Shown here: in pieces, positions 5,727 through 64,000 of the stretch
Numbering within the stretch: position 1 is the stretch's first letter
Layout of the letters: every line of letters starts with the position of its first letter
NCBI RefSeq assembly: GCF_023278565.1
Contig: NC_064672.1
Span: forward strand, 1,984,001 to 2,048,000
Source of the DNA: Colletotrichum lupini
Taxonomy: Eukaryota; Ascomycota; Sordariomycetes; Glomerellales; Glomerellaceae
Length of the DNA stretch: 64,000 nt
Reading direction: 5' to 3'
Position numbers and translations under genes: made by a program
The notes under the pieces: model-generated
What the model was told of the DNA's origin: nothing
Seen by the model: only the letters and a program-made list of their open reading frames with translations
Database searches by the model: none

Positions 5727-6908
5727 TCACTCTCCCAAAGCATCAATAGGAACCCCCTGGATATACGGAATACCCGTCAACTTGAACCCCCTCTCCGAAA
5801 GCTTCGGCACACTCCTCGGCTTGCCCGTATTATACGGACACGGCTCCCCATTCCTCAACACCGGAATGCCGCCAACGTGCATCGCATTAGGCCAGTGAGT
5901 CGTGCTCTTCAACTCCTCGAACGCGCCCTTCTTCCGCACCAAGTCCTCCTGCGTGGCCTCGGCGACCGGCATGTAACAAGTATACACGCAGAACCGCGGC
6001 GACGTGCCTTCCGGGCTGAGATTATAATGCGGCGTCCGGCTATCCCACAACAGCAAGTCACCAGGTTCCGCGTTGACCTTGATCCACTCGCACCCGCGGT
6101 CCTTGAGCCACTGCATCCCCTTGTCGGTGAACCCATACCACTCCTTCGTCCACGCCCAAATCTTATCCTCTTCCCCGCGGAACGCCTCGTGGAACTCCTC
6201 CGAGAGCATGTGCGCGCCCTTGCAGACGATGAGCCCGCCGTCGCGGTCCCCGTTCGGGAGGAGGTTCACGAGCCCCTGGAGGCAGCGGAAGCCTGGCTTC
6301 TCCGGGTCCTGGTCCTGGTGCGGCCAGGGGTTGTTGGGTTTGACGTCGGGCCGGTTGGGGAAGGCCATGTTGACGGCGTCAAAGGAGACGATGAGGTCGG
6401 GAGTGTCGTAGACTTTTTCAAAGGCGTCGACGAGGCCTGGTTCTTGGCGGATGGCCCAGGTGAAGGACTCGTGAGCGACGCCGTAGCCTAGGCACATTCC
6501 CTTTTCGGTGATGATCGGGAGGTTGGATTCTTTGACGGTGGAGGGGTCGTTGCGTTTGAAGCCGAGACCGCCGGCGCTACATTTGAGTTGTTAGCGTGCT
6601 GATTCGGTTGAGAGGCTTGGAAGTGTGAAAAGATAGATCACCCACAAGTTCTCAAGGTAGGACATCATTTCCTCGCCGTAGGCATCTGCTCTCTCGCGGG
6701 GAATAGCGCCCTTGACTACGACGTAGCCATCGCGGAGGAGATCATCACGGAAATCTCCAAAGACTGCACCTTCTTGAGAGAATAGTCTGTTGGGACCCGC
6801 CGGCTGAGGCTTCAAGGGAGCCGTGGCTGATGCATTTTTGACAATCTTCTTTCCGTCTGAGACCGGGATGGTCGCCAAAGGCTTTGCAAAGTCGGTTGCG
6901 ATGACCAT
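5727..6908 (-). CDS. Phytanoyl-CoA dioxygenase (PhyH) family protein
   Basis: A non-haem Fe(II)/2-oxoglutarate dioxygenase of about 370 residues. There are two exons, 6908-6646 and 6576-5727, joined in phase 2 (ENL region to AGGLGF); the donor is GTGGGT and the acceptor ATGTAG. The start is the ATG at 6908 (MVIATDF); the longer open frame begins with TTG. The iron facial triad is visible: H174-x-D176 in PHQDQD and distal H271 in TPHYN. R282 is positioned to bind 2-oxoglutarate. This fungal subfamily is often found in secondary-metabolite or catabolic clusters; the substrate is unknown. It is divergent from the S15 hydrolase at 7631, and the two share about 720 bp of promoter. Confidence 0.88.
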
Positions 6909-7630
6909 GATGAAAGCGTCAGATGAGGGAAACTTTCTGTTGAATAAGGTATGTGTGAGATCCAATGCCTCAGGAAAGCTTGATCTTCTCTAGATATTAC
7001 TCGTGTCTATGTAACGGAATGAATCGTTGTGTTTATAGGCAACATGAACGTTTGATGATACAAAGTGTTGAACCGATCAAGACACTTCCTGCCCACCGAG
7101 CCGTAAGCCCATAGACTAACTAGTACCTTGAGCTCGGGCAGGTGCAACAACTCTAGAGCATAATCCGCTATCTTGCCGAAAGCTACTCCTACCTCTCGGA
7201 ACAGTCTAGCCTAATCCCTTCGGTACGGGGCGGAAGAGTGGTGGGGGATATTCACTACACTAGCACTGTACATTCGAGGGGAATGCTTCGGTTCGGCATC
7301 GGCTGGGAGCTAAGTCCAGTGTAAGACGCTCGGTTCGGGAGTTGGCGGGCCTGTTTTCTTCCCGACTTGGACGACACTCCATCACACCCCACCCCCGTAA
7401 GCAGCCGGGACAGCAATTTCTTCCTTTCATGACCGCGGAGGGCCGGGAGAGGAGGGGTTAGAATCAATTGGAATTTGTACAAGCCGAAGTCATGAAGTCT
7501 TTGAAGATGGCCTTTGTACAAGTAGACCGGGACTTGCAACTGGAGGTTAACGGTCTCACTGGATACACTATAGCAAAGCGCTCTCCGACCTAAGAACAAG
7601 TTAGCAAGAGAGAAAAAGGCCCTTGTCATA
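6909..7630. promoter_or_regulatory. Divergent promoter between PhyH dioxygenase and S15 hydrolase
   Basis: A 722-bp gap between two gene starts pointing outward, with no believable coding frame. It contains pyrimidine-rich stretches typical of fungal leaders just before 7631. No specific operator is evident. Confidence 0.4.
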
Positions 7631-9520
7631 ATGCCGTCTTCAAGGTTCTCCGGTCTAGAAGTGCCTATCGAGCCGTTGAATGCACCAACACCCGGTCGTG
7701 ATGGCTACGACGGCCTCAATCCACATACAGAGACCCTACCCGCTGGCTGGAAACATCCTCATCCAGACGCGCGCCCACTGCCCTCCGCCATCCTACTAGA
7801 GCACGACGTCGCTATCAAAGTCAGAGACGGAACGACACTCTACGCAGACGTACTGCGCCCGCCAAACACCACAGAGAAAGTGCCTGCGCTAATATGCTGG
7901 TCCCCCTTTGGCAAGAAGTTCAACGGTCTCACGTCCCTGGGCTACATGACGCCATGGAACCTCGGCATCCCGTCTGGCACGCTCTCCGGCCTGGAAAAGT
8001 TCGAGGCGCCTGACCCGGCGGACTGGGTTCCCCGCGGCTACGCCATCGTCAACATCGACACGCGCGGTGCCTTTGACAGTGGCGACGAGAACACACCAAT
8101 GGTCATCATGGGCGGCCAAGAAGCCGAAGACGGGTACGATGCCATCGAGGTCGTGGCGGCGATGTCATGGTGTAGCGGCAGCGTCGGACTCGCAGGGAAT
8201 TCGCACCTCGCAATCGCGCAGTGGTTCATCGCGGCGCTGCGACCGCCGAGCTTGAAGGCCATTGCGCCGTGGGAAGGATGCGGAGACTTGTACCGCGAGC
8301 AGTTTGCGCGGGGAGGCGTGTACGCTGGCGACTTATTTGATGAGTTGATTATTAAGCACATGCTGAAAGGCCGCGGCGGTATCGAGAGCTTTCGCGAGAT
8401 GTACGCGCGGCATCCGCTTGCTAACGCGTGGTGGAACGACAAGAGGCCAGATATGAAGCAGATCAATGTGCCAACGTATATTACGGGCACGTGGACGAAC
8501 ACGATGCACGGTATGGGTGCCATCCGGGCCTGGTTGGAGGTGCAGTCGAAGGAGAAGTGGTTGAGATGGCATCCGTGGCAGGAGTGGTTTGACCTTTGGG
8601 GTAACCCTGAGGCCAAAGATGAGTTGTTTGCGTTCTTTGACCGGTACCTCAAGGGCGTCGATAACGGATGGGAGAAGACGCCCAAGGTGAGGATGTCTCT
8701 GCTGCGGTTTGGCGAGAAAACTCCCCAGGCGATTGAGAATATTGTTGAGGAGGATTTCCCGCCGGCGCGAACGCAGTACAAGGAGTTTTTTCTTGGCACG
8801 GAGGAGACGCTCATCTCCACTACTGCGCCAGAGACGAAGACGACGGTCAGCTACGACTCCGAGTCTGGCGGAAACGTCAGCTTTACTCATACCTTTCCCG
8901 AAACTACCAACATCATGGGCCTACCCAAAGCCGTGCTGTACATGTCTTGCCCAGATCACGACGACATGGATGTGTACGTTATGATTCAGAAGCTCGACAA
9001 AGATGGGAAGCAGATGAAGAACCTTAACATTCCATGGAAGGGCATACCCGTGAACTCGTTCCAAGAATTCAAGCCGGAGCAAGAGACGGAAGTCGTGCTG
9101 TACAAGGGCCCTGTGGGCATCCTCCGGGCTTCTCATCGAGCCATCGATGAGACCAGGAGCATGCACCCACACTGGCCGTTCCACCCGCACGAGAAGGAGG
9201 AGAAGATTACGCCTGGCGAGGTAGTCAGGCCGGACATCGGAATTTGGGCGCTCGGGGTTGAATACGAGGCCGGCGAGAGTCTGCGAGTTGTCGTTAGCGG
9301 ACAGAGCTTTGCCGTGAGTAATTTCGGGAAGAACCATACTCTGAATAAGGGTCGGCATAGCCTACACTTAGGAGGAGACCAAGCAAGCCATATTGTTCTT
9401 CCTTTTCTACAGATAATATCACAACGGTCCGCTGAGATGTACACCTCAATTGGCCTTCATCTCCAGTATCTGGTACCCGCCCGAACGCTATGCGCCCTGC
9501 ATGATAAGTCGCCTTCGTGA
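7631..9520 (+). CDS. S15/CocE-NonD family alpha/beta hydrolase
   Basis: A single-exon protein of 629 residues resembling the X-Pro dipeptidyl-peptidase (S15)/CocE family. The catalytic domain begins with a beta-rich N-terminus (IKVRDGTTLYADV), then WVPRGYAIVNIDTRG. The nucleophile elbow is GNSHLA with S191. A likely catalytic His lies in the LRWHPWQEW segment, and a C-terminal jelly-roll domain (PAX-DPP_C-type) ends near HLGGDQASHIVLPF. Family members hydrolyse acyl or proline-containing esters or amides; the substrate here is unknown. The last 35 or so residues after VLPFLQ look unrelated to the family, so the original stop may have been lost or a short 3' exon mispredicted. It is divergent from the PhyH gene. 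Confidence 0.85.
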   Translation: MPSSRFSGLEVPIEPLNAPTPGRDGYDGLNPHTETLPAGWKHPHPDARPLPSAILLEHDVAIKVRDGTTLYADVLRPPNTTEKVPALICWSPFGKKFNGLTSLGYMTPWNLGIPSGTLSGLEKFEAPDPADWVPRGYAIVNIDTRGAFDSGDENTPMVIMGGQEAEDGYDAIEVVAAMSWCSGSVGLAGNSHLAIAQWFIAALRPPSLKAIAPWEGCGDLYREQFARGGVYAGDLFDELIIKHMLKGRGGIESFREMYARHPLANAWWNDKRPDMKQINVPTYITGTWTNTMHGMGAIRAWLEVQSKEKWLRWHPWQEWFDLWGNPEAKDELFAFFDRYLKGVDNGWEKTPKVRMSLLRFGEKTPQAIENIVEEDFPPARTQYKEFFLGTEETLISTTAPETKTTVSYDSESGGNVSFTHTFPETTNIMGLPKAVLYMSCPDHDDMDVYVMIQKLDKDGKQMKNLNIPWKGIPVNSFQEFKPEQETEVVLYKGPVGILRASHRAIDETRSMHPHWPFHPHEKEEKITPGEVVRPDIGIWALGVEYEAGESLRVVVSGQSFAVSNFGKNHTLNKGRHSLHLGGDQASHIVLPFLQIISQRSAEMYTSIGLHLQYLVPARTLCALHDKSPS

Positions 9521-24396: not shown

Positions 24397-25689
24397 CTAT
24401 CGTTTCCTTCAAAGAAACCTTAGTGGTGGATAGACTTTTCTCGAGAAAGCTCAAGCTCGGCCGTAAGTAGCGGTATTATCAGCAATGTAGGATATAGCGA
24501 TTTCTTACGGCGTAGTAAAAGCACTCTCAGCAAGCCGAGGAACCAGTCCAACCTCTGCCTGCGAAATAAGCTGTTGAGCCTCCGTTACTTTACCATTCGT
24601 ATGAGACTGGGTACGGCCTTAGCGAGCATCATTGATATAAGTATGAAACATTACTCTCGGCGATTGGACATTACACGTAGATTGTGCATTGGATCTTGAA
24701 GCTTGCCCTAGTTTCAATCGCGTTACACTGCCCGGAACGGGTAACTCTATGGTGGTTCTATGTCTGTAGCCATGGACACGATGCTGTTGACGAGATCCCC
24801 ACTGGGGCAAGTGAGACGACCTATACGTCACGTATCAAGAGTACTTGAACGTCGCTAGCTCTGAGTAAATGGCTTGTCTCTAGCAACCTGTGCGAAATTT
24901 CTAGCTCTATCACACGAAGCCAAGAGCCCAAGAGGGTGGATGGGTAAACGGCCATTGATTCCCTTCCTCCACTTGGCGCGGTCTCTCACAAATGGAGTCT
25001 GAGCGGGGCAGAGGTGATAATGCTAGGATTCTTGTGGACGGATCGCGTATCCCGTCCAGCAGCGTGGGCTACCGGAACTGTTCCTGGCCCATGAAATACT
25101 GCGGACCAGGTCCATGGAGCTGCAGCTGTCCGAATGGGGTCAAAATGTGGCTGGCTTTCAAGTACCAGCTGGTAGCAATCCTTGCTCTCGAAACTCTGCT
25201 CCAGTCCAACGACGTGCACAAAGGGCTCAAACACTTGAAGCTTTTGAAGATTCCAACTGAATATCCCGAAAGATATGGATGACAGATCATCCAAGCTGTT
25301 TTCAGTCTCGGTGATGATTGGATTTACCGACTAGCAGTGTACAGACGAGCAGCGATGGCTTTCGAGACTGTCGGACGGCAGGTGTCTCTTCGTGTTGTGG
25401 GCGGAGGAACAGCCCACCTACGAGGAAACAAACAACGGTGGAAGGAGGTCGGTCTTCTGCACGCTCTAGTCCGCATGCGGCTCGCATAACGATAACGAAC
25501 AATGCAGTTGGTTCCAACAGGACCAACAACATCGATATCTGCCAAGCTGCGGGGGTTTACCTGTTATCCATGACTTTACAAAACCCCGCGATATTTCCAG
25601 CCGCTCTCGCGATCATCTTGCGACTATATTTGTTCTTCAACTCCATATTCAACTCCACACCAACTCATTGACCTCAGTCGCCAACAATC
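24397..25689. other. Region with possible degenerate 5' exons, then promoter of methyltransferase A
   Basis: Minus-strand coding-like fragments at about 24620-24500 (KVTEAQQLISQAE) and 24475-24375 (EKSLSTTKVSLKETIAW) seem to belong to the preceding gene but lie in incompatible frames. The rest, to 25689, holds no convincing gene and presumably includes the promoter of the methyltransferase starting at 25690. Confidence 0.35.
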
Positions 25690-49990: not shown

Positions 49991-50199
49991 TTACTATTAG
50001 ATTAGAAATCTAATTCGACCGCGGTATATAGCCGACTGCGCAGGGGCTAATTAGGGGCCCTATTTATAATTATTATAGCTAGCCTAACCTACGGTTAGAA
50101 CCTCCTTTTTATACCTATTACGTAAATATTTAAATAGTTTAATTAATCTCTTCGTTAACTATAGTTTAAACTAACTACTCTATAATAGGAATACTAATA
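49991..50199 (+). repeat. 5' LTR of Copia element 2
   Basis: 209 bp, gap-free against 56821-57029. The first four bases may be flank and not LTR, since one mismatch there is a transversion. Confidence 0.85.
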
Positions 50200-52199
50200 C
50201 TAATTAGTAATTAAATTCTATTATTATAAATCGGTAAGGTATCTTATTATGTAAAAGAGACGACTTCTTAATATTATATAGGATAAGAGATTCGTATTAA
50301 TTAACCTTATAAAAATAAATAAAAAAAGAGGCGATTCTCGAATACCGCACGGAATTAAGTAATTATAGCCCTTTACTACTTACGAGAGGTTAATATTTAT
50401 TATATTAAACTACGTTAATTAACGGAACTACTTAAGTAACTAGCTTTTTACTATCGCCCCGAGTAGCTTTTTTACTAAACGACTTTTCTATAGCCGGCCC
50501 GCGATTAAAAATTAACTAGTTAAATTAATAAAAGTACGGTATAAAAGAGCACTGCGCGATTAAAAAAGGGGATTTTTAAACGTAAATATTCTTATTTAAT
50601 AATAAAAGTAACCCTATAAGAGTTATTAAATTAAGAGATCTACGGTATATAGGAAAGTTTATTATTACGAGGATTTTATAAGTATAACCTTAAGCCCGCG
50701 ATTTAAACAACCTCTTTATAGCTCCCTTAACTACCCCCCGGGTATTACTTAGGAATATAGTATAGGGGACGGTTTAACGAGGGAGGAGGGGATTTAGAGG
50801 CCTTAATAATATTAAGCTAAGAGTATTACGGGTCTCGGAGATTAATTTAAAAAAAAGGTAGCTACTTTAAAATAGTCCTACGACCTCTTACTAAAGTTAT
50901 TATTAACCTAAGAAAAGGCTAAAAAGACGAGGATTTAAAAAGAAAAGAAAAGAATCCTTTAGAAGGTTACTAAAGGGCTTTTTTTTTATACTAGCTCTTA
51001 GCGTGAGATTACTAATTTTAAAAAATTAACTAAAAAAGCTATTTAGAGATTATAAAGAGTACGAGGCTTAAGAAGTTAGAAATATATAGGATAGTAGAAA
51101 TTAATAATTAATAAAGATCCTAAGATTAATTACTATATCTTCTTATAGTAATATAAACGTCTACCGCTATTATTATTAAAAAGAACTACTAAAACCTACC
51201 CTTTTATACTAAATAAAAAAGAGGATCTTAATAAGTACAATAGCTAGCGATTTAAAAAAGTAGTAATAATTATTAAAAATAGTAAAAATAAGAATAGTAG
51301 CGAGATAGTAAGAAGAAGTGGGAATCTTTTAGACCTTAATAAATTCGTTAAATAGTAAAAGTACGGATTTATTATAATTAGCGCGCGGATTAAATATATT
51401 CTTATTAAGATTAAATACGCTAGCGATTATTAATACGGGTATAAGCTAGAGTACGACCCTTAGCGAGTTAAGGTAAAAAAGAAGAGGACGAAACCCGATC
51501 CTAAATAAAATCCTAATCCCTTATAGGTAGGTAAATATTAACCCGGATTATTAGGGGACGTAGATATATAGAATTGCGGATTAGCTTAATAGTAAGTAAA
51601 TTAACGTAATATTAATCTATTTAACTAAGGTTTATAAGAAAAAGGGGCTATAGGGGTAACCCCTATTTTATAAGATCGCAAACGACCTTAGTTATTAACT
51701 AGATAAATAGTTCGCGAGCACAAGCCTAGGAATTATAAAAGTAGTTAATAAATTCCTCTACGAGCGAGGGGTATTATTAGCGTAATTATAATTATAAAAA
51801 CTATACGAAATACTAATAACGATAATTATAGAGGAGGAATTCGTACTATAAAACTAGGTATAGGTTAATAAAGTATATAATTGCTTTTACGAATTTAGAA
51901 AAAGGGTAAACGACCTAGATTTCCTCTTTATAATTACTAACGGAAATCTATCGTTATAAAAGGATATACCGGAGTAAAATATAGTACTAAAAGTACGATA
52001 ATCGATAATTCTACCTATTTTAATTTATAACTTATTACCGCTACTAATATAAAATTCGGCGCCGATTAGTTAATAAAAAAAGAAATAAACGACCTAAAGT
52101 TATTAATAATACGCAATAACGCAAGGATTATATATAAATACCGAAAATCTAATAATAAATACGAGGTAATTTATAAACCTTAAGAAGATCTTCTTGAAA

Positions 52200-53000
52200 G
52201 GAAAATTATACTCTGGGGGGAAGTATAAGGTCTTATAAAAAACCCTAACGATATTTTATAATTACTACGAAAAAGTCGGAATTAGGGAATACTAGTACTA
52301 TTTAGTAATTAATATCGTACTTATAAGTAAAGCCTTTAATTACTATTACGAAGCGGTACGTAATCTCGATTAAAACGACTTTCTTAATATAATTAACGTA
52401 ATCCGAAGCTGCTTCGAGACTTATAATAAGAACCTAGAGCTCCTATTTAAACTACGAGCGATTTCTTTTATATTTATAACTAGGATAATAGAGGGTAAAT
52501 TATAAGTAAAGATCCTTAAAGAGCTTATTAATTAAATTAATAAGCTAGTAAAAACCTAGCTAAATAAGGGGATAAATAAGTAAAAAGTCGGATATTTTTA
52601 TACCGTAATATAGCGTATATTAAAAATAAAAATAACCCTATACTAAGTACTTAAAGACTACGAGACGCTCTACTCGAGGCTAAGATCTAGCTTTAATATT
52701 AAAACGAGAATATTATATTAAACCTACCTTTAAGTATACGACGGCCCTTATTAATAATATTAAGTCGATCGAACGTATAATAAGAAAGGAAAAGAGGCTA
52801 GATACAGTAATTACTAATAAAGAGGCCTAAATTCGTTAAATAAGTAGAGATTTAACTTATGGGTAGGGTAATAAAAGAGGTAATACTATATTTATAAAAA
52901 GGATAGATATTAGTTAAGTAACTACTCCGAGGAAGAGCGTACTAAATCGTACGAATAATATAAAAAGTCGAGGGTAGTAAATAGTAAAACTAGCCCTCGT
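52200..53000 (+). pseudogene. Decayed Copia gag with zinc-knuckle relic
   Basis: The segment includes INVIRSCFETYNKNLELLF-like sequence and, near 52.88 kb, YKKDRYWLSNYSEEERTKSY, reminiscent of fungal Copia Gag and its zinc knuckle with Cys/His codons mutated. It has multiple stops. Confidence 0.6.
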
Positions 53001-53879
53001 TAGTTTAACTAATTCCTTGTTATATATAAGGGTAGATCCGGGGGTATAGAACTTAGTAATAATAGTTAAAATAGCGGCTTAAAGTATATACCCCCTATAA
53101 GAGATTTAGAAAATAAAAAAGATCTTACTCCCTATATTAACGAATTAGATTACGACGAAATCGACGATATTAACTACTCTTTTTTCGTCCCGTTAGCCTC
53201 TAGAGGATATACGAGGCTAAATAAATAGAGGGTAGTAAAAGCTCTTAATAAATAAGCTTTTATTTACGGATAGTAAGGGAAGGTCCCTTAAATAATAGAT
53301 ACGGAGGCGGCTAAAAGGGCGAATTTAATAATACCGAAGCCCATTCTCTTAATAATTAAAGAGAAGATACTATTTTTTTTAATATTTAAAAAAAAGGAAT
53401 ATAGTACTAAGCAAATCTAGGGGTAGCTAGAGGGGTCCTTTTTATATTACTTAGATCCCTTAAATACTAAGCTTATATAAGTATTTTATACGAGCGAAAA
53501 GTACGGCCTAGACGATTTTTATAAAATTATCTTAGATACTAAGGTATTATAATAATTAACTAAAAGAAAAGGGTAATTTTAAGCGCTATAAAAGATCGCA
53601 CTAATAACGCTTAATACGTTAATAATAAGTATTACGAAGATTAGTTTTAGCCTAAGTAAGGAAATTATTACCCTAGGTATAGTAAAAATAAAGACGTACT
53701 TCGGAACGATAACTTTTTATATTTTACTTATTAATACCCTATTTCTCTTATATTTAAAAAATATAGATCGACTAGGTATTATATTTAATAATATAAAGAA
53801 TAGAATCTTTAGTAATAAGTACTTTAAGATAGTCGAACGACGATAGGGGTATGCGTTTATAAAGCTTACTAACGATACG

Positions 53880-54560
53880 AAGTTAATTAATTACTTAACG
53901 AAAAGTAAGCTTAGAAAACTATATTAGAGATTTAGGTACCCGTCGGTTACGAAGCTATATAACCTTTTAAAGTAATTAAGTAATAATAATATCGAAATAG
54001 GGGCGCTAGAGTAGTTAATAAAAATATATTACTAATACTAAATAAATACGCAAAGCCTACGTAGATTTAAGTTTAAATTACGTAATAAGCTTAACTTTAA
54101 CTAGGAAATCGTCGTTAATATTTTTTATTTAAATAGTCAGCTAGTACTATATATAATTAACGTAGCTATATCTTTTTAAATAGGGCAATTCTTCTAGGAT
54201 CTATAAGTAAAAATAGTATAAGTAGCCCTATAAAAAAGCTAGATTAATATATACTAAGGACTACTAAATAGCATTAGAACCGACGCTAGTACTAGCTTTA
54301 AGTTAGTAAAATTTAGGGATAATATAACGGCCTATAGTATATAGCTAAAAGTCGTACCCGTTAAAGCGTACTATAGTATTAAAAAAATAAAAAGGGCATA
54401 CTAATAGTTAAAAAGGGCGTTTAGAATTATTAAAAAAGAAAATCCGGATTTTATTAATAACGAATGCCTCTAGATAGTACTTAAATACTATAATAATACT
54501 ATAGGGCCTAACGGACTTATATTAACGCTATTAGTATTTAGAGCATATTTAAGAACGACC
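53880..54560 (+). pseudogene. Decayed Copia gag-pre-integrase and integrase
   Basis: Starts with YPSVTKLYNLLK and INTQSLRRFKFKLR, the typical gag-pre-integrase/zinc-binding layout, followed by an integrase core fragment with RTDASTSFK and KVVPVKAYYSI. Broken by stops. Confidence 0.7.
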
Positions 54561-55099
54561 TTAGCCTTATTACTATTACTAGGTATAAGCTAACGAGCTT
54601 AAGTAATTAAAAAAGTAATATAAGCACTGCGCAAGGTAAGTATAAGAAAATAAGTTAACGAAGTAATTACTATACGCAATAGGCCTAATATAAGGGATAA
54701 TCTAGATATACTACTAAATTCGGATATATAAGTATAGTACGAAATTACTTAATAATAAGCTAAGCTATATAAGTTAATTTCCGTTAACGAGCGCTCTTAT
54801 ATAGTTATAAGAGATTACGACTAGCTACTCGAAGTATTAATTATAGTAGTTAGACCGTACTATATAGATCTTAACGAGGTAATTTCTAACTTATAAAAAG
54901 AAAAAGAGCTAGGGGAAACTATATAACCCGCGGTAGAGGTATAAAAGATTATCCTTAATAAAATCGTCGTAGTAATACTAATAAATAATAAAAAAGAGGA
55001 AATTGCTAAAAGGGCACTAATACTACTAATAAGACGTTATAGAAAACTACGATAATAAGCCCTAACGCGGTAATTTATTACTAATAACGAGGTAATTAA

Positions 55100-56100
55100 T
55101 ACTTTTTATATAATAATAAAAAAAGCCGATTTCGAGCTAGCGGTTAAACTACGTAAAAAAGGCGTAATTATAACTATTAAAAAGCCGTATAAGGGATTAG
55201 ATCTTATTAAAGTAAACACTTTTTATAATCGAGGGGTCTATTGATTTATCCTATATAACCTAAAAAAATATATAAACCTCTATATATTTAAATTATAAAT
55301 AGTTTATAAGATTAAAAAAAAAGGAATACCCTAGCCGTATAAAAAGTCTAGATACGTAATTTAGGGGTATAGCGACGTTAAAAAAGCGACGCTACTTATA
55401 TAATTACTTACTATATAGCGCTATAGCTAACGATTAATAATAATACTAATAGTATCGCTACGGAAAAAGGGATACGAGATTTAGAGCCGTAATATTACCT
55501 AGGCCTATACCTAATTAGCCACAGGGCTTATAAAAAAAATCCTAGCCTATTTACTAAAGGAAATAGCTAGTAAGTACTTAAAAAGCACGATTATTAAAGT
55601 ACTTAAGCTACTATATAAGCTCGTAAAATTAGGCACTTATTAATAGGCTACTTACTACGATTTTTATATTAATTAACTATTAATAGTTACTTTTATATAC
55701 GACCTATACTTATTAATCGTAAAGTACGAAGGTAACTAATTTAGGATCGTCGGAATATAGACTAATAATATATTAGGCCTATCCGATATTAATTTTATAA
55801 AAAAGGAGGATAAGGAGCTTTAAAAAGCGGGCTTCGTAATAAAGCTAAAAGAGGTCTTTATAATAAATACCCCCCTAGTATTTAACGGCGGGATTTTTAT
55901 AATTAAAAAGGAAACTGTTATTTTTTAATAAAAGGGGTAGGGTGAGAAGATTAACTTCGTTAATTTAAACGTAATTAACGTTAAGAAGCGGTATAAGGCT
56001 AAGCTTACGTAAGGGGTATATATTATAAATATTTATTAACCCGAGGTAATTTTTAATTACGCTAAGGTAGTATAAGCTATAAATCTAATTAAATAAGATA
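55100..56100 (+). pseudogene. Decayed Copia reverse transcriptase
   Basis: Contains a GYSDVKKATLL block, KGYEI and SRNIT, then KVLKLLYKLVKLGTY and YDLYLLIVKYEG, in the order of a fungal Copia RT. It has multiple stops. Confidence 0.72.
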
Positions 56101-56239
56101 TTAAAATACTTAATAAGTAGCTTAAGTAGTAGTAAACGAATCTTAATTAAGGTCTTATTTACTACCCGATCGACCTTACGATTAATAAGCTCTACGTTTT
56201 TATTAATAAGTTATTTACGAATAATAACGACCTTATTTC

Positions 56240-56700
56240 GTAATTAAGGTATATTATTATCCTAGTTAACGAGAGTATAAGTAAGAGCGAATTTACTATA
56301 TATAGTAATATAATCTATTACTCGTTAATTAAAAATAAGTAAGTAATAAGAAATATACTAGTATTAGAGGTTTATAGTATAATTAATAGCGTTAACCTCT
56401 CCTATGCGATTTTAATAACGCTAAGGAAAATTACTAATCGAATTAGCCTTTTACTTATTTTAATAGTTATTTATACCGATTTTTATTTATTATACGAATA
56501 CTTTATTAAATTAGGAATAACGAAAGAAAAGAGGTTTATAATCGATATTATAGCCCTTAGGTAATCGTACGAAAGGCGCGAAATACTCGAGATTTATTAA
56601 ATTAATAATAAAAATAACCTCGTAAACGCTTTTATAAAAGTAATATTAAATAAGGGATTAAAGTAATTTATAAGTAGTAGAAAAGTTAATATATAAATAG
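56240..56700 (+). pseudogene. Decayed Copia RNase H
   Basis: YTDFYLLYEYFIKLG (from about 56472) followed by RFIIDIIALR and SYERREILEIY matches the C-terminal RNase H of fungal Copia polyproteins. Confidence 0.75.
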
Positions 56701-56820
56701 AGGGATAGGTTATACGAAAAGAGTAGAAAAAAGGGGGAAAAGGAGACGACTTAGTAAACGGGCCCGAGGTCGAATTATATCTCTAACCGTAGTAGTTAAA
56801 TCGATAAAAAAAAGAGAAAG

Positions 56821-57029
56821 TTAGTATCGGATTAGAAATCTAATTTAACTACGGTATATAGCTAACTACGCAGGGGCTAATTAGGGGCCCTATTTATAAT
56901 TATTATAGCTAGCCTAACCTACGGTTAGAACCTCCTTTTTATACCTACTACGCAAATATTTAGATAGTTCAATTAATCTCTTCGTTAACTACGGTTCGAA
57001 CTAACTACCCTGTAATAGGAATACTAACA
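56821..57029 (+). repeat. 3' LTR of Copia element 2
   Basis: 209 bp ending ATACTAACA. It terminates six bases from the stop codon of the dihydropyrimidinase gene, which is on the opposite strand. Confidence 0.88.
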
Positions 57030-57035
57030 CCTACA

Positions 57036-58699
57036 TCATTTCATCGGCAATGGCTGGAACTCATTCACCCATTGATTCCTCGGCTTGCTCAATGTGCTCT
57101 TTCCACGCCGCAAAAAATCGCCATATCCCATATCGCTGACAATACCGCTACTATCGCGGTCCCAAACCACTTTGCCTCGCAAAATGGTATAACGCGGCCA
57201 ATTGTTAAACTTCATCCCTTCGAAAGGCGAGTAATCGATATCATGATGCAACATCGAGTTCTCCAAGACAAACGGCTCCATCTTTGCTGAGCCCGTCCCG
57301 CCGCTGGCAGCAACTTGCTCAATCGTTGGATACCAGATTACAAAGTCGGCATCATATCCTGCGGCAATCGCCCCCTTCGTGTCTCCCAACCCGTAAAGCT
57401 TTGCCGGGTTCGTCGCCGTGACCTCGACAAACTTCTGTGGCGTCACTCTACCCGTTAACACGCCGCCCTCGAATAGCAGCGGTAGTCGTGTCTCAACGCC
57501 GGGAAGCCCGTTGGGAACCTGGTCGTACCTCATCAAGCCATCTTCCTTGCCCAATCCCGCCTTTTTGCCTTCAGGGTGATCATATTTACTCGGCGCGTGA
57601 TCTGAGCTGAAGGTCGTAAACGTCCCATTGGCAATACCAGCCCACATGGCGTCCAAATCCATGCGGTCCTCACGTAATGGCGGACTGCAGATATGCTTCG
57701 CGCCGGAGAAGCCATCAGTGGCCGGATGAGACGGCTTCAGGGCATCGGCTGTGAGATAGAGGTAGTGGGGGCACGTCTCCGCGTGAATTGGCAGGAGCCT
57801 TGTCTGCGCGCTCCTGACGTGCGCGGTGGAGGTCTTGGAAGACATGTGGACGATGAGAATGGGGATATCAGAGAGCTCAGCAAGGGCGATAATGCGGTAC
57901 GTTGCTTCATCTTCGGCGATGTTGGGCCGGCTGATGGCGTGATAGTACGGCGCAGTGAGTTTCTGCTCTGCAAGGCGTGCCGTGATCCAGGTGATCATGT
58001 CGCTGTTTTCAGCGTGCACCATGGTTGTCATGCCTAGGTTCCTCGTAGCCATCATGACATCTAGGATCTCGCCGTCTTTGAGCTGCAAGGGCTCGTAGGT
58101 CATGTAGAGCTTCACGGAGGTGATGCTCTCGCTGACAAAGAATGGAAGTTCATCGCGAAGGATGGTGGGGGTCGGGTTTGGGAGAATGATGTGAAAACCG
58201 TAGTCGCAGTATGACTTCCCTCGGGAGCGTGAGTGATAGTCATCTACGACTGGGTGAAGAGACTGATGGGTGCGTTCCTGTGTAGCAAAGGCAATAATCG
58301 TTGTTGTGCCTCCTGCAATCGCTGATCGAGTGCCGGTCTCAAAGTTGTCTCCTGTTGGAGAGTTGTCCTGATACTGGTTTAGACAAGGGAGTTCTGTTTG
58401 GAAACTGAATACAACATTTTCTTACCTGATCAAGGTGTACATGGGAATCCACGCCGCCCGGCATGACGAAGCCATGTTGTGCATCTATCACTGTCTTGGC
58501 CGAGAAAAGAGACTTGAGATCCTGGCCTACAGCTAAGATCTTGCCGTCGCGAACCACAATATCTTGTCTCACGTGGACATCAGATGCCGTTACCTATTTT
58601 GTTTCTCCATCAGTCATTTTGCCGATGGGGCCCTCGCTACAACATGATTCATGTAGTACTCACCACTGTGGCATTCTCAATGATGAGATCAACCTCCAT
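57036..58699 (-). CDS. Dihydropyrimidinase / D-hydantoinase
   Basis: A protein of about 511 residues from exons 58699-58664, 58593-58426 and 58367-57036, all phase 0. The start is ATG 58699 (MEVDLIIENATVV). It is a cyclic-amidohydrolase metalloenzyme that opens hydantoin or dihydropyrimidine rings to N-carbamoyl amino acids. Metal ligands are all visible: H63-x-H65 (HVH), carboxylated K154 in SVKLYM, H186 in MVHAEN, H242 in IVHMSS, and D324 in SSDHAPS. DNSPTGDNFETGTRSAIAGG is the family block after the second splice. It is divergent from a carbamoylase/racemase fusion, which favours a hydantoinase role over simple reductive pyrimidine degradation. A retroelement LTR lies six bases past its stop codon, so its 3' UTR must use LTR sequence. 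Confidence 0.93.
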
Positions 58700-59233
58700 G
58701 TCGCTTTACCTTAGTGTGCTATGACAGCAGAAGAGTCTCAGTATGCTAAAAGCGATTTTTGTGAGACTCAACCAACGACAAACTTCGCTTCGGGAAATTC
58801 GTAGAGTTTTTTCAACCTGTCCTCGAGTTTCCCTTGACACCATACGGAGTATCTACAGAGTCATTAACAACATCTACACTGGGTGTAGACTTGATAACGC
58901 TGTTCCTGCGAAGAATAAATAGGCCTATCTGAGATAAAGATAGGCAGCCACGGCAAACTACCCGACGGCCTATCGGCGCTTATCGCCCACAATTTAGACT
59001 ACCTTAGGGAGCTGCAGGGAATAGGACGGACGATACGGAGCACTGCACGCTGATCTCAATGCATGAGGGGTAGACCCAGCACTACTTTGTGGGAGATTCG
59101 GAGAAGAGCTCAACGACTTCTCGTGGCGAAAAGAATAAGTTTGGACTGAAGTTTGCATAGCGGCAGTGAAAAGAGGGAATGTGATAACATAGCAACTTGA
59201 CAACTGCACAAGAAAAACAGGAAGTCAGCGGCA
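58700..59233. promoter_or_regulatory. Divergent promoter of hydantoinase and carbamoylase-racemase, rich in GATA and CGG sites
   Basis: A 534-bp shared promoter. Three HGATAR sites crowd into 19 bp (58925-58943: CTATCT, AGATAA, AGATAG), with further GATA sites at 58892-58897 and about 58970-58985. These are the binding motif of AreA/NIT2-type nitrogen regulators. A perfect 7-bp inverted repeat, TCTACAC-TGG-GTGTAGA, lies at 58873-58889. CCG-A-CGG at 58962-58968 has the form of a Zn2Cys6 half-site pair. The neighbouring Zn2Cys6 gene is a candidate specific regulator. Binding is inferred, not shown. Confidence 0.6.
58873..58889. promoter_or_regulatory. Perfect inverted repeat, candidate operator
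   Basis: TCTACAC and GTGTAGA separated by TGG, about 175 bp upstream of the hydantoinase start and 345 bp upstream of the fusion gene. Confidence 0.45.
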
Positions 59234-61054
59234 ATGCCATCACTGAAGCTTCGCGTGGCTGCGGCTCAGATGGGCGCAACGCATTACAACGACCCCCGGC
59301 CCAAGACACTGAATCGCATGCTATCACTTCTTGAAGACGCAGCCGCAAAGGGAGCACAGCTGGTTCTCTTCCCTGAAGCCGCCTTCACGACCTTCTTTCC
59401 CCGGCATCTGATAAACGACTCCTCTGAACTTGACTCCTTCTTCGAGCACGGCGATGTAGCGACTCAGCCGCAGACAAAACCGCTATTCGATAAGGCCAAC
59501 GAGCTGGGCGTCGACATCTCGGTCGGCTTTGCCGAAAAGGCCGACGACGGCGAAACCTTCAACTCCTGCATCTACTACCACGCAAAGAGCGGCTCCATCC
59601 TCTCAAAGTACCGCAAGATCCATCTTCCGGGCGACTTTGAGCCCTTTGCGGACCCGGATGCCACGAACCAGCTAGAGAAGCGTTACTTCAAGCCTGGAGA
59701 CCTCGGCTTCAATGCGTTCCGGGTACCCGATCTGACAGAGCCGGAGGCGGCACCGGAGCGCGGGGACCCCATCTTCGGCATGATGATCTGCAACGACAGG
59801 AGATGGGCTGAGAGCTGGCGCGTTTTGGGTCTACAGGGCGTCGAGGTCGTACTGTGCGGCTACAACACGGCCGGCTTCGCGCCGCATCTCTGGGGAACCA
59901 GCGCCAGCATGGATCCGGACGAGGCGCGGAGCAAGGCACTCTTCCACCACAAGTTGGTGATGCAGGCTCATAGCTACACGAATGCCTGCTTCAGCATCAG
60001 CGCTGCGAGGTGTGGTCTCGATGACGGGATATACGACCTCATTGGCGGTAGCTGCATCACTGGTCCGGAGGGCGAGCTTGTCGCTGAGGCATCTACAACA
60101 GAGGACGAGGTCGTCTATGCAGAAATTGACCTGGCTGAGTGCCGGCCGGGCAAGGAGCGCACATTTGACTTTGCCAGACATCGTCGTGTAGAGCATTATG
60201 CTCGCATCACAGAACAAACCGGCGTCGTGGAGCCTCCTAAGCTCTCGCCCTTAGCCGAGAAACACAACGGAGCAGTAAGTAACGGCATCACGCCTGGACA
60301 GACTCAGAAGAAGATCCGCATCCTCCTCATCAACCCAAATAGCACCCGCGCCATGACCGACGCCTGCGTCGCCATGGTCGAGAGCCAATTACCCCCCGAC
60401 GTCCTCGTCACAGGCTTCACGGCGCCTAGGCCGGCGCCCTCAGCCATCGAAGGCAGTTTTGACAACGTAATGTCCGCCGCGGCCGCCGCTCGCGCCGTCC
60501 TGCCCCTTGCGGCGACCCATGATGCCGTCTTGGTGGCGTGCTACTCCGACCATGCCCTCATCCGCATGCTTCGCGAAGAACTCCCTCGCCAGCCCGTCAT
60601 CGGGATCACGGAAGCCTCGCTCTTCGCGGCGCGAACGCTGGGCGGGCGGTTTGGGCTCATTGCCGTGAGCGAGCGGTCGAGGGTGTTGCACGAGGATAGC
60701 ATTCACCACTATGGCTTCTCAGCCTCCTGCGCCGGCGTGGTCTCGTGTAAGTTGGGCGTGCTGGACTTGCACGAGAAGAGCCAGGATGAGGTCATGGGAA
60801 TCATGGCAGCCGTCGGGAAGAAGCTGGTGGAGGAAAAGGGGGCCGATTTGTTGCTTCTGGGATGCGCGGGTATGACGCCGCTCAAGGGGGCCGTAGAGGC
60901 GGCTGTCGGGGACGGCGTGCAGGTTGTTGACGGCGTATTGGCTGGGGTGCATCACCTAGTTGGATTAGTTAGAATGGGCGATGCCACGGCCAAGAGGGGC
61001 GTCTACAAGAGCTCCGGTGACGGACGAAAGGCGAGAGGACAGGATTGGATCTAG
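59234..61054 (+). CDS. N-carbamoyl-D-amino-acid amidohydrolase fused to Asp/Glu/hydantoin racemase
   Basis: A single-exon protein of 606 residues with two complete enzyme domains. Residues 1-335 are a nitrilase-superfamily carbamoylase with catalytic E48 (LFPEAAF), K128 (YRKIHLPG) and C186 in MMICNDRRWAESWR, the signature of N-carbamoyl-D-amino-acid hydrolases. A flexible linker (about 336-359) leads to residues 360-590, an Asp/Glu/hydantoin racemase domain. This has the N-terminal block ILLINPNSTRAMT and the two catalytic cysteines C436 (ACYSDH) and C544 (LLLGCAGM). The fusion would couple racemisation with hydrolysis of N-carbamoyl-D-amino acids to D-amino acid, CO2 and ammonia. There is no signal peptide or membrane helix, so it is probably cytosolic. 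No stop or frame change occurs across the junction and the linker is in frame, so this is a real fusion. It is divergent from the hydantoinase. Confidence 0.93.
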   Translation: MPSLKLRVAAAQMGATHYNDPRPKTLNRMLSLLEDAAAKGAQLVLFPEAAFTTFFPRHLINDSSELDSFFEHGDVATQPQTKPLFDKANELGVDISVGFAEKADDGETFNSCIYYHAKSGSILSKYRKIHLPGDFEPFADPDATNQLEKRYFKPGDLGFNAFRVPDLTEPEAAPERGDPIFGMMICNDRRWAESWRVLGLQGVEVVLCGYNTAGFAPHLWGTSASMDPDEARSKALFHHKLVMQAHSYTNACFSISAARCGLDDGIYDLIGGSCITGPEGELVAEASTTEDEVVYAEIDLAECRPGKERTFDFARHRRVEHYARITEQTGVVEPPKLSPLAEKHNGAVSNGITPGQTQKKIRILLINPNSTRAMTDACVAMVESQLPPDVLVTGFTAPRPAPSAIEGSFDNVMSAAAAARAVLPLAATHDAVLVACYSDHALIRMLREELPRQPVIGITEASLFAARTLGGRFGLIAVSERSRVLHEDSIHHYGFSASCAGVVSCKLGVLDLHEKSQDEVMGIMAAVGKKLVEEKGADLLLLGCAGMTPLKGAVEAAVGDGVQVVDGVLAGVHHLVGLVRMGDATAKRGVYKSSGDGRKARGQDWI

Positions 61055-61328
61055 TTTCCTTAGTTGGCCGCGGGAATAACAACATGAGCTTAGATGGAAT
61101 AAATATCAGCCGAAGCTCTATCACTCTCACACCATGGAGCTTGTTGCTATCGAAATGCAGGGTTGTTTTGCTAATGATCCAATCGGCCAACGCCCCGTTA
61201 TCAGAGTCCGATAGTTTGCAGATCAACTCAGAGTCTCAACCAACATGGAATCCTGGGGAGGACGCGGGGAATGAAGTCCGCAACGACATCAAGTCTCCTA
61301 ACATGCTTTCCATCTTTGAATCCACACC

Positions 61329-63473
61329 ATGGAGATCAACTTGAACGGCCAGACCAAAAAGAGTAGTAGGAACAGTCATCCCTGCGACTTTTGCCGTTAC
61401 AAGCGCGCCGCTTGCCTTGTGCACGAAGACACGCCACCATGTGAGCTCTGCCGACGGTTAGGCAAAGAGTGCACATTTGTTGGGGGCCCTAACAAGAGGA
61501 GACGGCTATCCGAGCGGCGGCAAAGCGGCTCGAGCGATGGGATACGGAGCCCCCATCACCGACAGGACGGAGCTGCCCCTGGAGCAGATGGGAGGTTTCC
61601 GTCTGTGGAGGTTTCGCCCATTGCCGATTCCATCTTTGTGAGAGGGCTGATGGACTCTGCGAGCCCGACATCACCACACACAACGTCTTCACCAGATGTT
61701 CCACGTCGAGAGAATGTCTTCGTACCGTCGTCGCTGGACGCGGAGCCTGGTCACAATGCTCAGGTGATAGGTCTCAGCGGTGAATCGGATCCGTACTTGC
61801 TAAATCTGTATCACTTCGACGAGAGAGACGAATGCACGTTTCAGCAACTCCGCATCAGCAATATGGGGCCTGAAGATGGGGTTCCCATTCAGTTTATGCT
61901 ACAGCGCAACTCACAAGCTAGTAAAGCGCAACCAGGAGGGCTGGGAGCTACCGCGGCCGACCTTAGATGCGAGGTCTCGGACCTGGTCTCTGAGAATGTT
62001 GGTCAAAGGCTCATCACTCTGTAAGGAATCGGCCAGACCCTCTTATACTCACTCGAATATGCCTGAGTTCAGAATGAAGTTCCGACTGACTGGTGGCAGT
62101 TTCTGGAAGTATGTTCAACCTTACTTCCCGGTCGTATCCAAAGAACACACAATCCAAAATCTTAACGGCAGCCCCTCCGCAATGCCAATATGTCTCCTGG
62201 CAGCAATCTATGGCCACGCCCTCCCCTTCTGCGTATTCGACGACATCCTCTGTGTAGACGTCGACACCCTCCCCTCGGCAGACCACCTCTTCAAACTTGC
62301 CTGGATGGCCGCCCTATCCGAGTTCCATACTCCATCTCTCGCCACGGTGCAAACGATGCTTCTCATGATTCAGCGACGGCCAACTAACAAGCACGTCGCC
62401 GACACGCCGTTCAAATGGACCATGCTCGCAGACACGGTGGCGCTCGCGCAGTGTTTGGGACTCAATCTGGACCCATCGGATTGGGCGATTCCGAGCTGGG
62501 AGAAGAGATTGCGGCGGAGGCTTGCTTGGGCGGTGTATGTTCAGGACAGGTGGCTGAGCCTTAACTTTGGCAGAAGTTCGCACATTCAGGAGTGCGATTG
62601 GGATGTCTCGTCGCTTGGGCCGGATGATTTTGGTGATGTTCCTGGTTGTGAAGGTGAAGGGCCCTTGGTGTGTAGGCACTTTCTGCATCTAGCCTCTCTA
62701 ACTGAGATTGTGTCCAAGATTCAACACAACATGTTGTAAGTTGCATCCCAATACAGCGTCACTGCTCTGATATTGATGCTCATTAACCGTTGTAGCTCTA
62801 TCAAAGCCACTAGAGCTCTCTCCAAGTCGCTCGAAGCAACTTTCGAAGTTGCTCGGCCCTTGAGGATTGAGCTTGCAGAGTGGCTGCAAATCCGACCCGA
62901 CGTAGGGGAACAGCCCTCAGCATCTCTGCCAGAATGCGGCCTCGATGGGAATGGTAGTCTGAAACTCGCCTACATCACCGCAAAGATTGCTGTCTTCAAG
63001 GCCCTTCTTCGACCGAAAAGCATCGAGGTCCCAACCGAAGCCCGCACGGCGTTGCGCACCGGCTCAATGACTATCGCGCGAGAGATGCATGACTTTCTCG
63101 CGAAACTGGAGGCTCATCATCTTGAAGCTTTCTGGCATTCATGTAAGCGTTGCCCCAGCCTCCCACACGAGAAGCGTGCTTTCCCCGGAAGTATTCGCCA
63201 GATAGCTGACCATGGCTAGATTCCCGTGTCAACTTTGCCATTGCGAGCAACTTTATTGTCTTGCTCTTTGCTCTCTCTCCGACGCTATCGGAAGCTGAAG
63301 ACGCCCTTGCTCTTTTGATTCAGTGGAGGGGCTTATTGCGGATCAAGTCGAGAAGCTGCGACTTATTGAACTTGAGCCTGCTGAGACTTGATGCCATCTT
63401 CGTGGCTGGGCTGGGCAAGCTCATTGAATTGACACCCGCGGCAGCTGAGGCAGCCTCGAACCGGGGTTTGTGA
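61329..63473 (+). CDS. Zn2Cys6 transcription factor, candidate regulator of the hydantoin cluster
   Basis: A protein of 651 residues from exons 61329-62020, 62073-62735, 62796-63142 and 63220-63473 (phases 2, 2 and 1; donors GTAAGG, GTAAGT and GTAAGC). The zinc cluster is C19, C22, C29, C38, C41 and C48 (CX2CX6CX8CX2CX6C), followed by a basic KRRR stretch. The fungal-specific TF domain runs from about residue 230 (YVQPYFPVVS) to 500 (RRRLAWAVYVQDRW), and the C-terminal part ends in NRGL. It starts 274 bp after the fusion enzyme and converges on the permease, placing it inside the cluster. Local control of the hydantoinase genes is inferred from position. Regulators of this type usually sense an inducer. 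Confidence 0.9.
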
Positions 63474-63643
63474 GATGGGCTAACTTACATGGATGATTCA
63501 CATCCAAGCCCGTGAACCATTCCCGCGAGAACCACAGGGAAGTAGGCCGGGCCTTAAGCTCATAGCATGTGGTTCCAATAACATTAAATGATGACGTGTA
63601 CTTATCTAGCGTCAGGGTATGGTATTATGAGTCTAAGATCACA

Positions 63644-64000
63644 TCATCCCGTCTTCATGTCTTGGTCTTTCCCTTCCAAGCCTTTCTCTGACCCGTTTGA
63701 ATCCTCCACCGTGGGGTATCCGTCAACATACAACAGCTCCCGGCTATAATCCACGGGGAATGGCTTAATCTTCCAGCAAACCCAATACGTGAAACTAGCC
63801 ACCAAGGTACTGACAAGCCAACTCAAGCTGCAGAGATAAATGGCCCCCTTGGGAACTCCCTTGGCGCCACAAGCAGCGGCAAGACCGGGCATGTTGGGAA
63901 TGATGGCAAAGATGAAGGCGATAACCGCTCGGGGGTTGACGCCAAAAGTGTAGTAGTGTATGCCTCGCGGATCAAAGAGGGACGGGACTGCCATTGCACG
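63644..64000 (-). CDS. NCS1-family permease, C-terminal exon (5' part beyond window)
   Basis: 119 codons of open frame ending at 63644 and still open at base 64000. Two hydrophobic helices (VIAFIFAIIPNMPGLAAAC and IYLCSLSWLVSTLVASFTY) and the PFP followed by a polar tail match the last two helices and C-terminus of nucleobase:cation symporters (NCS1). NCS1 members import uracil, allantoin, thiamine and, in bacteria (Mhp1), hydantoins. Position beside hydantoinase and carbamoylase-racemase suggests a ureide/hydantoin importer. Only the C-terminus is visible, so the substrate is unproven. It converges with the Zn2Cys6 gene, with 170 bp between. Confidence 0.78.
   Translation of the reverse strand, partial: RAMAVPSLFDPRGIHYYTFGVNPRAVIAFIFAIIPNMPGLAAACGAKGVPKGAIYLCSLSWLVSTLVASFTYWVCWKIKPFPVDYSRELLYVDGYPTVEDSNGSEKGLEGKDQDMKTG

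Follow-up and report, generated by a model that had tools for sequence, protein, structure and literature searches.

Four adjacent genes of the plant-infecting fungus Colletotrichum lupini are described here from a window of 64,000 nucleotides, corresponding to bases 1984001-2048000 of contig 1 in a genome of 63.44 Mb and 12 contigs. A hydantoinase, a carbamoylase-racemase fusion, a Zn2Cys6 regulator and an NCS1 permease lie side by side, all of them present and intact, in agreement with the gene content given in the initial annotation of this DNA. The cluster runs 1.4 kb beyond the end of the window, where the 5′ part of the permease is found. Exon borders of all spliced genes are predicted and were assigned from sequence alone. 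Chance or misreading of the cluster is excluded, since two domains share one open frame and the intact genes have counterparts in other Colletotrichum with 90, 98 and 99% identity (fusion, hydantoinase and permease, respectively). An Rfam scan of the window gave no match above the gathering score.

Gene models and the likely divergent promoter

The hydantoinase gene, located on the reverse strand at 57036..58699 (exons 58699-58664, 58593-58426 and 58367-57036), encodes a cyclic amidohydrolase of the dihydropyrimidinase/D-hydantoinase type with 511 amino acids, the spliced model extending N-terminally beyond an open reading frame that begins at the third exon. With an alternative acceptor, 6 bp further upstream, the protein would have 513 amino acids, the length of C. 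acutatum protein P0121, to which the hydantoinase is 98% identical. The protein matches Pfam Amidohydro_1 (E 2e-18) and carries the amidohydrolase pattern (HxH, carbamylated Lys, two His, Asp) in the stretches DSHVHLD, present in the spliced model, SVKLYMT, MVHAEN, IVHMSS and SSDHAP, the last four aligning with 1nfg and 2fty. About 5 bp separate its stop codon from an AT-rich LTR-type element. C. salicis P0122 ends in the identical C-terminus FQPLPMK, and P0121, P0123, P0124 and P0127 in almost the same one; this conservation indicates that the gene is whole, ruling out damage by the neighbouring repeat.

A divergent intergenic region of 534 bp (58700..59233) separates the hydantoinase from the fusion gene (59234..61054, forward strand) and likely serves both as a promoter. 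The previously claimed shared promoter is thereby retained for this pair and abandoned for the regulator and the permease, which converge. The region contains seven HGATAR sites of the GATA-factor type, including an inverted CTATCT/AGATAG pair, compared with a mean of 1.77 in 1000 mononucleotide shuffles, two of which scored as high; these sites suggest that the hydantoinase/fusion pair could be under GATA-factor control. The regulator, a transcription factor at 61329..63473 on the forward strand (exons 61329-62020, 62073 or 62100-62735, 62796-63142 and 63220-63473, the second exon having two possible acceptors), shows the CX2CX6CX8CX2CX6C pattern in its translation. When scanned as separate open reading frame pieces, it scored 72.8 bits for Fungal_trans (cut-off 23) and 20.4 bits for Zn_clus, just under the cut-off of 21.

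The 3′ part of the permease occupies 63644..64000 on the reverse strand, with the stop at 63644 and the remainder outside the window; the whole gene comprises four exons and 531 amino acids, starting at window-equivalent position 65437. The window fragment alone exceeds the PF02133 cut-off (27.5 against 23.5 bits), the domain is present in 120 listed relatives, and a C. filicis protein is 99% identical. A gene with AMP-binding, phosphopantetheine and NAD_binding_4 domains, resembling an NRPS-like reductase, adjoins the permease and begins within about 1 kb of it.

The fusion and its bacterial relatives

The fusion gene, devoid of introns, encodes 606 amino acids, and its assignment draws on Pfam, PDB relatives, alignment and predicted fold. 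Both domains are read in one frame (CN_hydrolase, 1.5e-47; Asp_Glu_race, 5.1e-51), the N-carbamoyl-D-amino-acid hydrolase covering residues about 1-345 and the hydantoin/allantoin racemase residues about 360-606. E48, K128, C186, R189 and R190, which we take to be the catalytic positions of the carbamoylase (the Glu-Lys-Cys triad and, following its Cys, the Arg pair that binds the carboxylate), do not vary in any of the 23 aligned fusions, and neither do C436 and C544, presumably the two catalytic cysteines of the racemase half (PF01177, 174 bits, cut-off 31). The carbamoylase half matches the D-carbamoylases 1erz and 6lei in PDB with E values of 4e-69 and 2e-69, its nearest predicted-fold matches are likewise D-carbamoylases (36-37% identity by structure), and on these two kinds of evidence it is placed in the D-carbamoylase family. 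The Agrobacterium and Nitratireductor enzymes (1erz, 6lei) share the Glu-Lys-Cys residues and the following Arg-Arg with the fusion; however, they are single-domain proteins of about 303-316 residues, whereas the fusion adds a racemase domain downstream. An engineered N-carbamylase-D-hydantoinase fusion was reportedly made by Kim et al. 2000, to go by the title as cited in PMC9505000. There, too, a carbamoylase is coupled to a second hydantoin-pathway enzyme, but the construct is man-made and has the hydantoinase as partner, whereas the fungal protein is natural and has the racemase.

Protein searches returned 778, 6370 and 454 matches, with 120 listed, and took only relatives of 0.55-1.75 times the query length, which excludes single-domain D-carbamoylases, so that the occurrence of both domains in all 120 listed fusions is partly by design. 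Among these, the best match is that of C. jinshuiense (90%), and no fusion of the C. acutatum complex appears, though hydantoinase and permease matches from that complex reach 98-99%; this gap weighs slightly against the hydantoin reading. In existing annotations the fusion already bears the name "N-carbamoyl-D-amino acid hydrolase" or "carbon-nitrogen hydrolase".

In regard to the source of these genes, prokaryote genomes were scanned with the fusion alignment and two peptide patterns, and the best 80 of at least 499 related loci were kept. By title, 76 of the 80 are alphaproteobacterial, accompanied by three betaproteobacterial MAGs and one Salinicola, and carbamoylase identity within this set reaches 53% (Roseomonas, L018). 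None of the 80 has both fusion domains in one open reading frame. The racemase follows the carbamoylase directly on the same strand in five, and in three of those, the alphaproteobacterial loci L017, L019 and L020, the two genes are in the same frame, interrupted by a single stop codon. A carbamoylase tree was built on a hand-chosen subset, 24 sequences from fungi and 38 from bacteria, and rooted on L017 by choice. The fungal sequences fall into a single clade (SH-aLRT 100), and its sister (99) is made up of 17 sequences that belong to Acetobacteraceae/Roseomonas, Bradyrhizobium and one betaproteobacterial MAG. This supports an alphaproteobacterial derivation of the carbamoylase. The in-frame pairs fall outside the sister group and thus illustrate a possible route to fusion, not a demonstrated ancestor; within the sister group, the Acetobacteraceae loci L041 and L050 have a racemase adjoining the carbamoylase in a different frame. 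The simplest origin of the fusion would be that two abutting genes lost the stop codon separating them.

In 25 of the best 80 loci, the carbamoylase has both a hydantoinase (at least 35% identical) and a racemase next to it, and a blastp comparison with the fungal permease at 1e-6 gave no match in any of the 80. The fungal cluster has the same enzyme set as bacterial hyu loci, which comprise D-hydantoinase, D-carbamoylase, hydantoin racemase and Mhp1-type permease. Unlike them, it is eukaryotic, its hydantoinase and permease genes contain introns, it includes a Zn2Cys6 regulator, its carbamoylase and racemase form a single protein, and its permease is distant from Mhp1 (66 bits). In the accessible part of one study, Asp/Glu/hydantoin racemase genes account for 17 transfer events, of which 15 were into fungi (PMC5169069), in agreement with the present findings, and the word hydantoin is absent from the accessible part of a survey of prokaryote-to-fungus transfer (PMC11708051).

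Linkage and spread among fungi

The cluster genes are linked repeatedly, across three ascomycete classes and, as regards fusion and hydantoinase, in two Basidiomycota. Linkage was read from locus tags, assumed to be numbered along the genome, and from shared contigs in the protein tables. Tags place fusion and hydantoinase side by side in C. jinshuiense (EsH8_III_001426/001427), and fusion, hydantoinase and permease close together in Diplodia seriata (SLS55_008934/008935/008938). Further pairs are of fusion and permease (FQN53_002022/002020, AAFC00_005804/005802, LTR85_010983/010981, LTR08_003990/003992 and LTR37_018272/018277) or of hydantoinase and permease (FE257_005703/005702 and FQN52_001063/001062). 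Among the matches listed, fusion and hydantoinase share a contig in 11 cases, fusion and permease in 9, and hydantoinase and permease in 11, which on large contigs denotes the same contig only and not adjacency; the shortest contigs with fusion and hydantoinase include ones of 12,564 and 22,580 bases, and the Basidiomycota among these cases are Gloeophyllum and Neolentinus. As each table row represents a protein cluster, a missing shared contig does not mean missing linkage. The initial annotation had regarded absence of conserved linkage as telling against a hydantoin pathway; linkage was found in many genomes, with exceptions in three (two of Meristemomyces frigidus and one of Saxophila), where the fusion and the nearest listed hydantoinase are far apart (LTR85_010983 and 011448, LTR08_003990 and 002472, LTR77_010049 and 000947), and these do count against that pathway.

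In a tree of 39 fusions, Colletotrichum and Zymoseptoria group together (98), and the enclosing clade (99) adds Saccharata, Diplodia, Phyllosticta and Sporothrix/Niveomyces. Zymoseptoria groups with Colletotrichum for fusion, hydantoinase and permease, the permease row being partial (322 aa). Under constraint groups partly picked after the tree was seen, a single Dothideomycetes clade for the fusion was rejected (p 3e-47), as were a grouping of the Zymoseptoria fusion with five other Dothideomycetes, presumably its kin (p 0.0018), and one of the Colletotrichum fusion with Sporothrix/Niveomyces (p 0.0015). A Colletotrichum clade excluding Zymoseptoria was not rejected for fusion, hydantoinase and permease (p 0.18, 0.42 and 0.44), and a transfer into Zymoseptoria from inside Colletotrichum is thus not upheld. 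The gene set probably moved between fungal classes, in a direction that the trees do not give. A bolder scenario, which we regard as rather doubtful, is that the fusion is a new channelling machine, produced in fungi by stop-codon loss in abutting genes transferred from alphaproteobacteria, and that with a linked hydantoinase and importer it provides fungi with a mobile route from hydantoins to D-amino acids. This route would have moved from class to class (Dothideomycetes, Colletotrichum, Zymoseptoria) and into Gloeophyllales.

Candidate pathway and competing substrates

D-hydantoin metabolism is known as a bacterial trait, used industrially for D-amino acids, in which racemase, hydantoinase, carbamoylase and an Mhp1-type permease convert hydantoins to D-amino acids. 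It is fairly probable that the C. lupini genes form a comparable nitrogen-scavenging cluster, in which 5-monosubstituted hydantoins are imported and hydrolysed to D-amino acids. In such a pathway the NCS1 permease would import the hydantoin, the racemase half of the fusion would interconvert its L and D forms, the D-hydantoinase would open the ring to N-carbamoyl-D-amino acid, and the carbamoylase half would yield the D-amino acid together with CO2 and ammonia. Control of the hydantoinase/fusion pair through the divergent promoter would fall to the Zn2Cys6 protein and a nitrogen factor of the GATA type. Gene content, recurrent linkage and the D-carbamoylase family favour the fungal hydantoin pathway put forward in the initial annotation; its description as complete from import to amino acid goes further, and we infer the substrate range, the stereochemistry of the hydantoinase, the direction of flow and the regulation. 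Under the bolder scenario above, the racemase, whose fusion partner is the carbamoylase instead of the hydantoinase, might use the N-carbamoyl intermediate as substrate, or pass substrate on directly. To our knowledge, the former activity is known only as a side activity of N-succinyl-amino-acid racemases. For those enzymes it is described in the accessible part of PMC7431475.

Reductive pyrimidine or ureide salvage, the alternative named from the outset, would turn the amidohydrolase into a dihydropyrimidinase, the CN hydrolase into a ureidopropionase and the permease into a uracil permease. We consider it unlikely, although several observations agree with it. The closest solved relative of the hydantoinase is the yeast dihydropyrimidinase 2fty (346 bits, against 268 bits for a D-hydantoinase), and most relatives among the matches listed carry the name dihydropyrimidinase. 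The 461-aa frame beginning at the third exon, and hence lacking the first two, scored 373 bits for NCBIfam TIGR02033 D-hydantoinase (cut-off 393) and 487 bits for PRK13404 (cut-off 647). The 2fty kinship counts against the hydantoin reading, as may these sub-cut-off scores. The last step of salvage could be performed by amidases of the M20 hydantoinase/carbamoylase family, which occur at three other loci. However, the CN hydrolase is closer to D-carbamoylases than to beta-ureidopropionases, and dihydrouracil is achiral, which would leave the racemase without a role. The hydantoinase shares matching metal-site stretches with 2fty and the D-hydantoinase 1nfg as a cyclic amidohydrolase, but its gene is clustered with D-carbamoylase/racemase, not with ureidopropionase.

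The rest of the genome also bears on salvage. We know of no yeast reductase gene for the reductive pyrimidine route. In a weak test, with a bacterial-type model and the genome searched exon by exon, the best match to dihydropyrimidine dehydrogenase reached 31 bits against a cut-off of 335, which the control for this search passed in 2 of 14 genomes. DUF1688, presumably URC4, occurs at two loci and is absent from the 14 control genomes, all prokaryotes. Together, the lack of a dehydrogenase above the cut-off and the two DUF1688 loci argue against reductive uracil degradation and weaken the salvage alternative, which keeps the 2fty kinship and the uracil-permease names; by elimination, they favour a URC route for uracil, leaving the window cluster for other substrates.

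Among the matches listed, relatives of the permease are named nucleoside permeases or, in some cases, uracil permeases, and only Mhp1 sequences match the permease in PDB at E 0.001 (66 bits). W131, Q135 and N342 align with Mhp1 Trp117, Gln121 and Asn318, giving the NCS1 triad. According to the accessible part of PMC4195764, these Mhp1 residues hold the hydantoin ring, and their equivalents matter also in the nucleobase transporters FcyB and PLUTO (PMC4195764). The triad therefore does not separate hydantoin from nucleobase transport, and its occurrence in nucleobase transporters is counted against the hydantoin reading. The same applies to Mhp1 Trp220, which packs on the 5-substituent and has no Trp counterpart in the permease by hand alignment; the phmmer alignment pairs it with a Thr. 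Hydantoin is listed among NCS1 substrates in general in the accessible part of a review (PMC5307856).

Among solved structures, the racemase half is most like allantoin racemases by sequence and predicted fold, which counts against hydantoin as substrate, while the allantoin/hydantoin racemases 5lfd, 3qvk and 2eq5 are just 21-30% identical to it, too low to read the substrate. A quite improbable possibility is that it converts R-allantoin to S-allantoin in a cluster scavenging plant ureides, the hydantoinase and carbamoylase then having allantoin, allantoate or related ureido acids as substrates. Allantoate, however, is achiral and does not require a D-specific carbamoylase. Moreover, an amidohydrolase stretch at C6:5155937, 36% identical to the hydantoinase, may be the ordinary allantoinase, and of the three racemase-family places in the genome one belongs to a second racemase/NCS1 locus on C6. 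The genome has one full hydantoinase of the cluster type, its other matches being the C6 stretch and a short relic in the window, and one carbamoylase match. The Saccharomyces DAL cluster serves the allantoin pathway with a racemase-like gene (DCG1) and a permease (DAL4), and is not known to include a D-carbamoylase. Itself under nitrogen control, it resembles the window cluster in its racemase-family gene and NCS1 permease, and differs in pathway and in the apparently missing D-carbamoylase; the C6 locus looks closer to it than the window cluster does.

The D-amino acid might instead be destined for biosynthesis, with the NRPS-like reductase as one possible user, which we consider very improbable. 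The reductase gene adjoins the permease, but the recurrent linkage seen elsewhere concerns hydantoinase, fusion and permease. A D-amino-acid oxidase, which could act on the product of the pathway, was not located in a PF01266 search that scored 14 of 164 candidates, and an oxidase motif was not found in 15 loci.

No title or abstract listed in searches of an open-access library, outside which most subscription papers lie, reports a fungal hydantoinase-carbamoylase-racemase cluster or a natural carbamoylase-racemase fusion. Two hydantoinase-process reviews name no fungal source in their accessible parts, and three fungal "hydantoinase" papers, as far as their accessible text goes, concern hydantoinase B/oxoprolinase, another family. 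The natural carbamoylase-racemase fusion is a new feature of a recurrent fungal cluster. If the hydantoin reading is true, D-hydantoin metabolism would be widespread in fungi as well, with its own protein architecture, and many fungal genes named only "dihydropyrimidinase" or "carbon-nitrogen hydrolase" would gain a role. It would also offer a natural bifunctional biocatalyst and a clear example of genes that entered fungi from bacteria, fused there and later probably passed between classes as a set. The accessible part of a C. graminicola study records one PF01177 gene as differentially expressed.

Repeats bordering the gene cluster

On the side of the hydantoinase gene, the cluster is bordered by a 7 kb AT-rich block (window positions 49991-57030, GC content of about 0.28-0.31), which is flanked by direct repeats of 210 bp that are 90% alike. 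This block is an LTR-type element with RIP-like composition, and the stop codon of the hydantoinase gene is located about 5 bp from its end. Another AT-rich block occupies roughly 38-48 kb of the window. Furthermore, positions 24466-24545, about 33 kb from the hydantoinase gene, hold an 80-bp relic that shares 82.5% identity with the 3′ end of that gene and derives either from a second copy or from a fragment that was captured. Just past the window, the permease is directly adjoined by an NRPS-like adenylation/thiolation/reductase gene on the forward strand (positions 5778-9001 of locus L004).

Occurrence of the fusion protein and its partners

In the yeast Cyberlindnera fabianii, relatives of the hydantoinase (57%) and of the permease (55%) were found together on one contig of 186,808 bases, with no fusion protein of this species among the matches listed. 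For the C. acutatum complex, the matches listed include its hydantoinase and permease but not a fusion protein; different annotation, absence from the database or loss in the complex is perhaps the reason. In three alphaproteobacterial metagenome-assembled genomes (loci L017, L019 and L020), carbamoylase and racemase are in the same reading frame, parted by one stop codon.

Other racemase-family loci in the genome

A second locus of the same genome (L007, G000:C6:4448000-4457999) combines an NCS1 permease with a racemase that stands alone, perhaps constituting a set of allantoin-side genes. There, an ORF at 7557-8057 on the reverse strand resembles, by eye, a Zn2Cys6 protein; the ORF adjoining it had no Pfam family match when scanned. 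A third gene of the Asp/Glu-racemase family is located on the reverse strand at 4512-5189 of L008 (G000:C5:6011000-6020999), adjoined by what was judged by eye to be a sugar-transporter gene.
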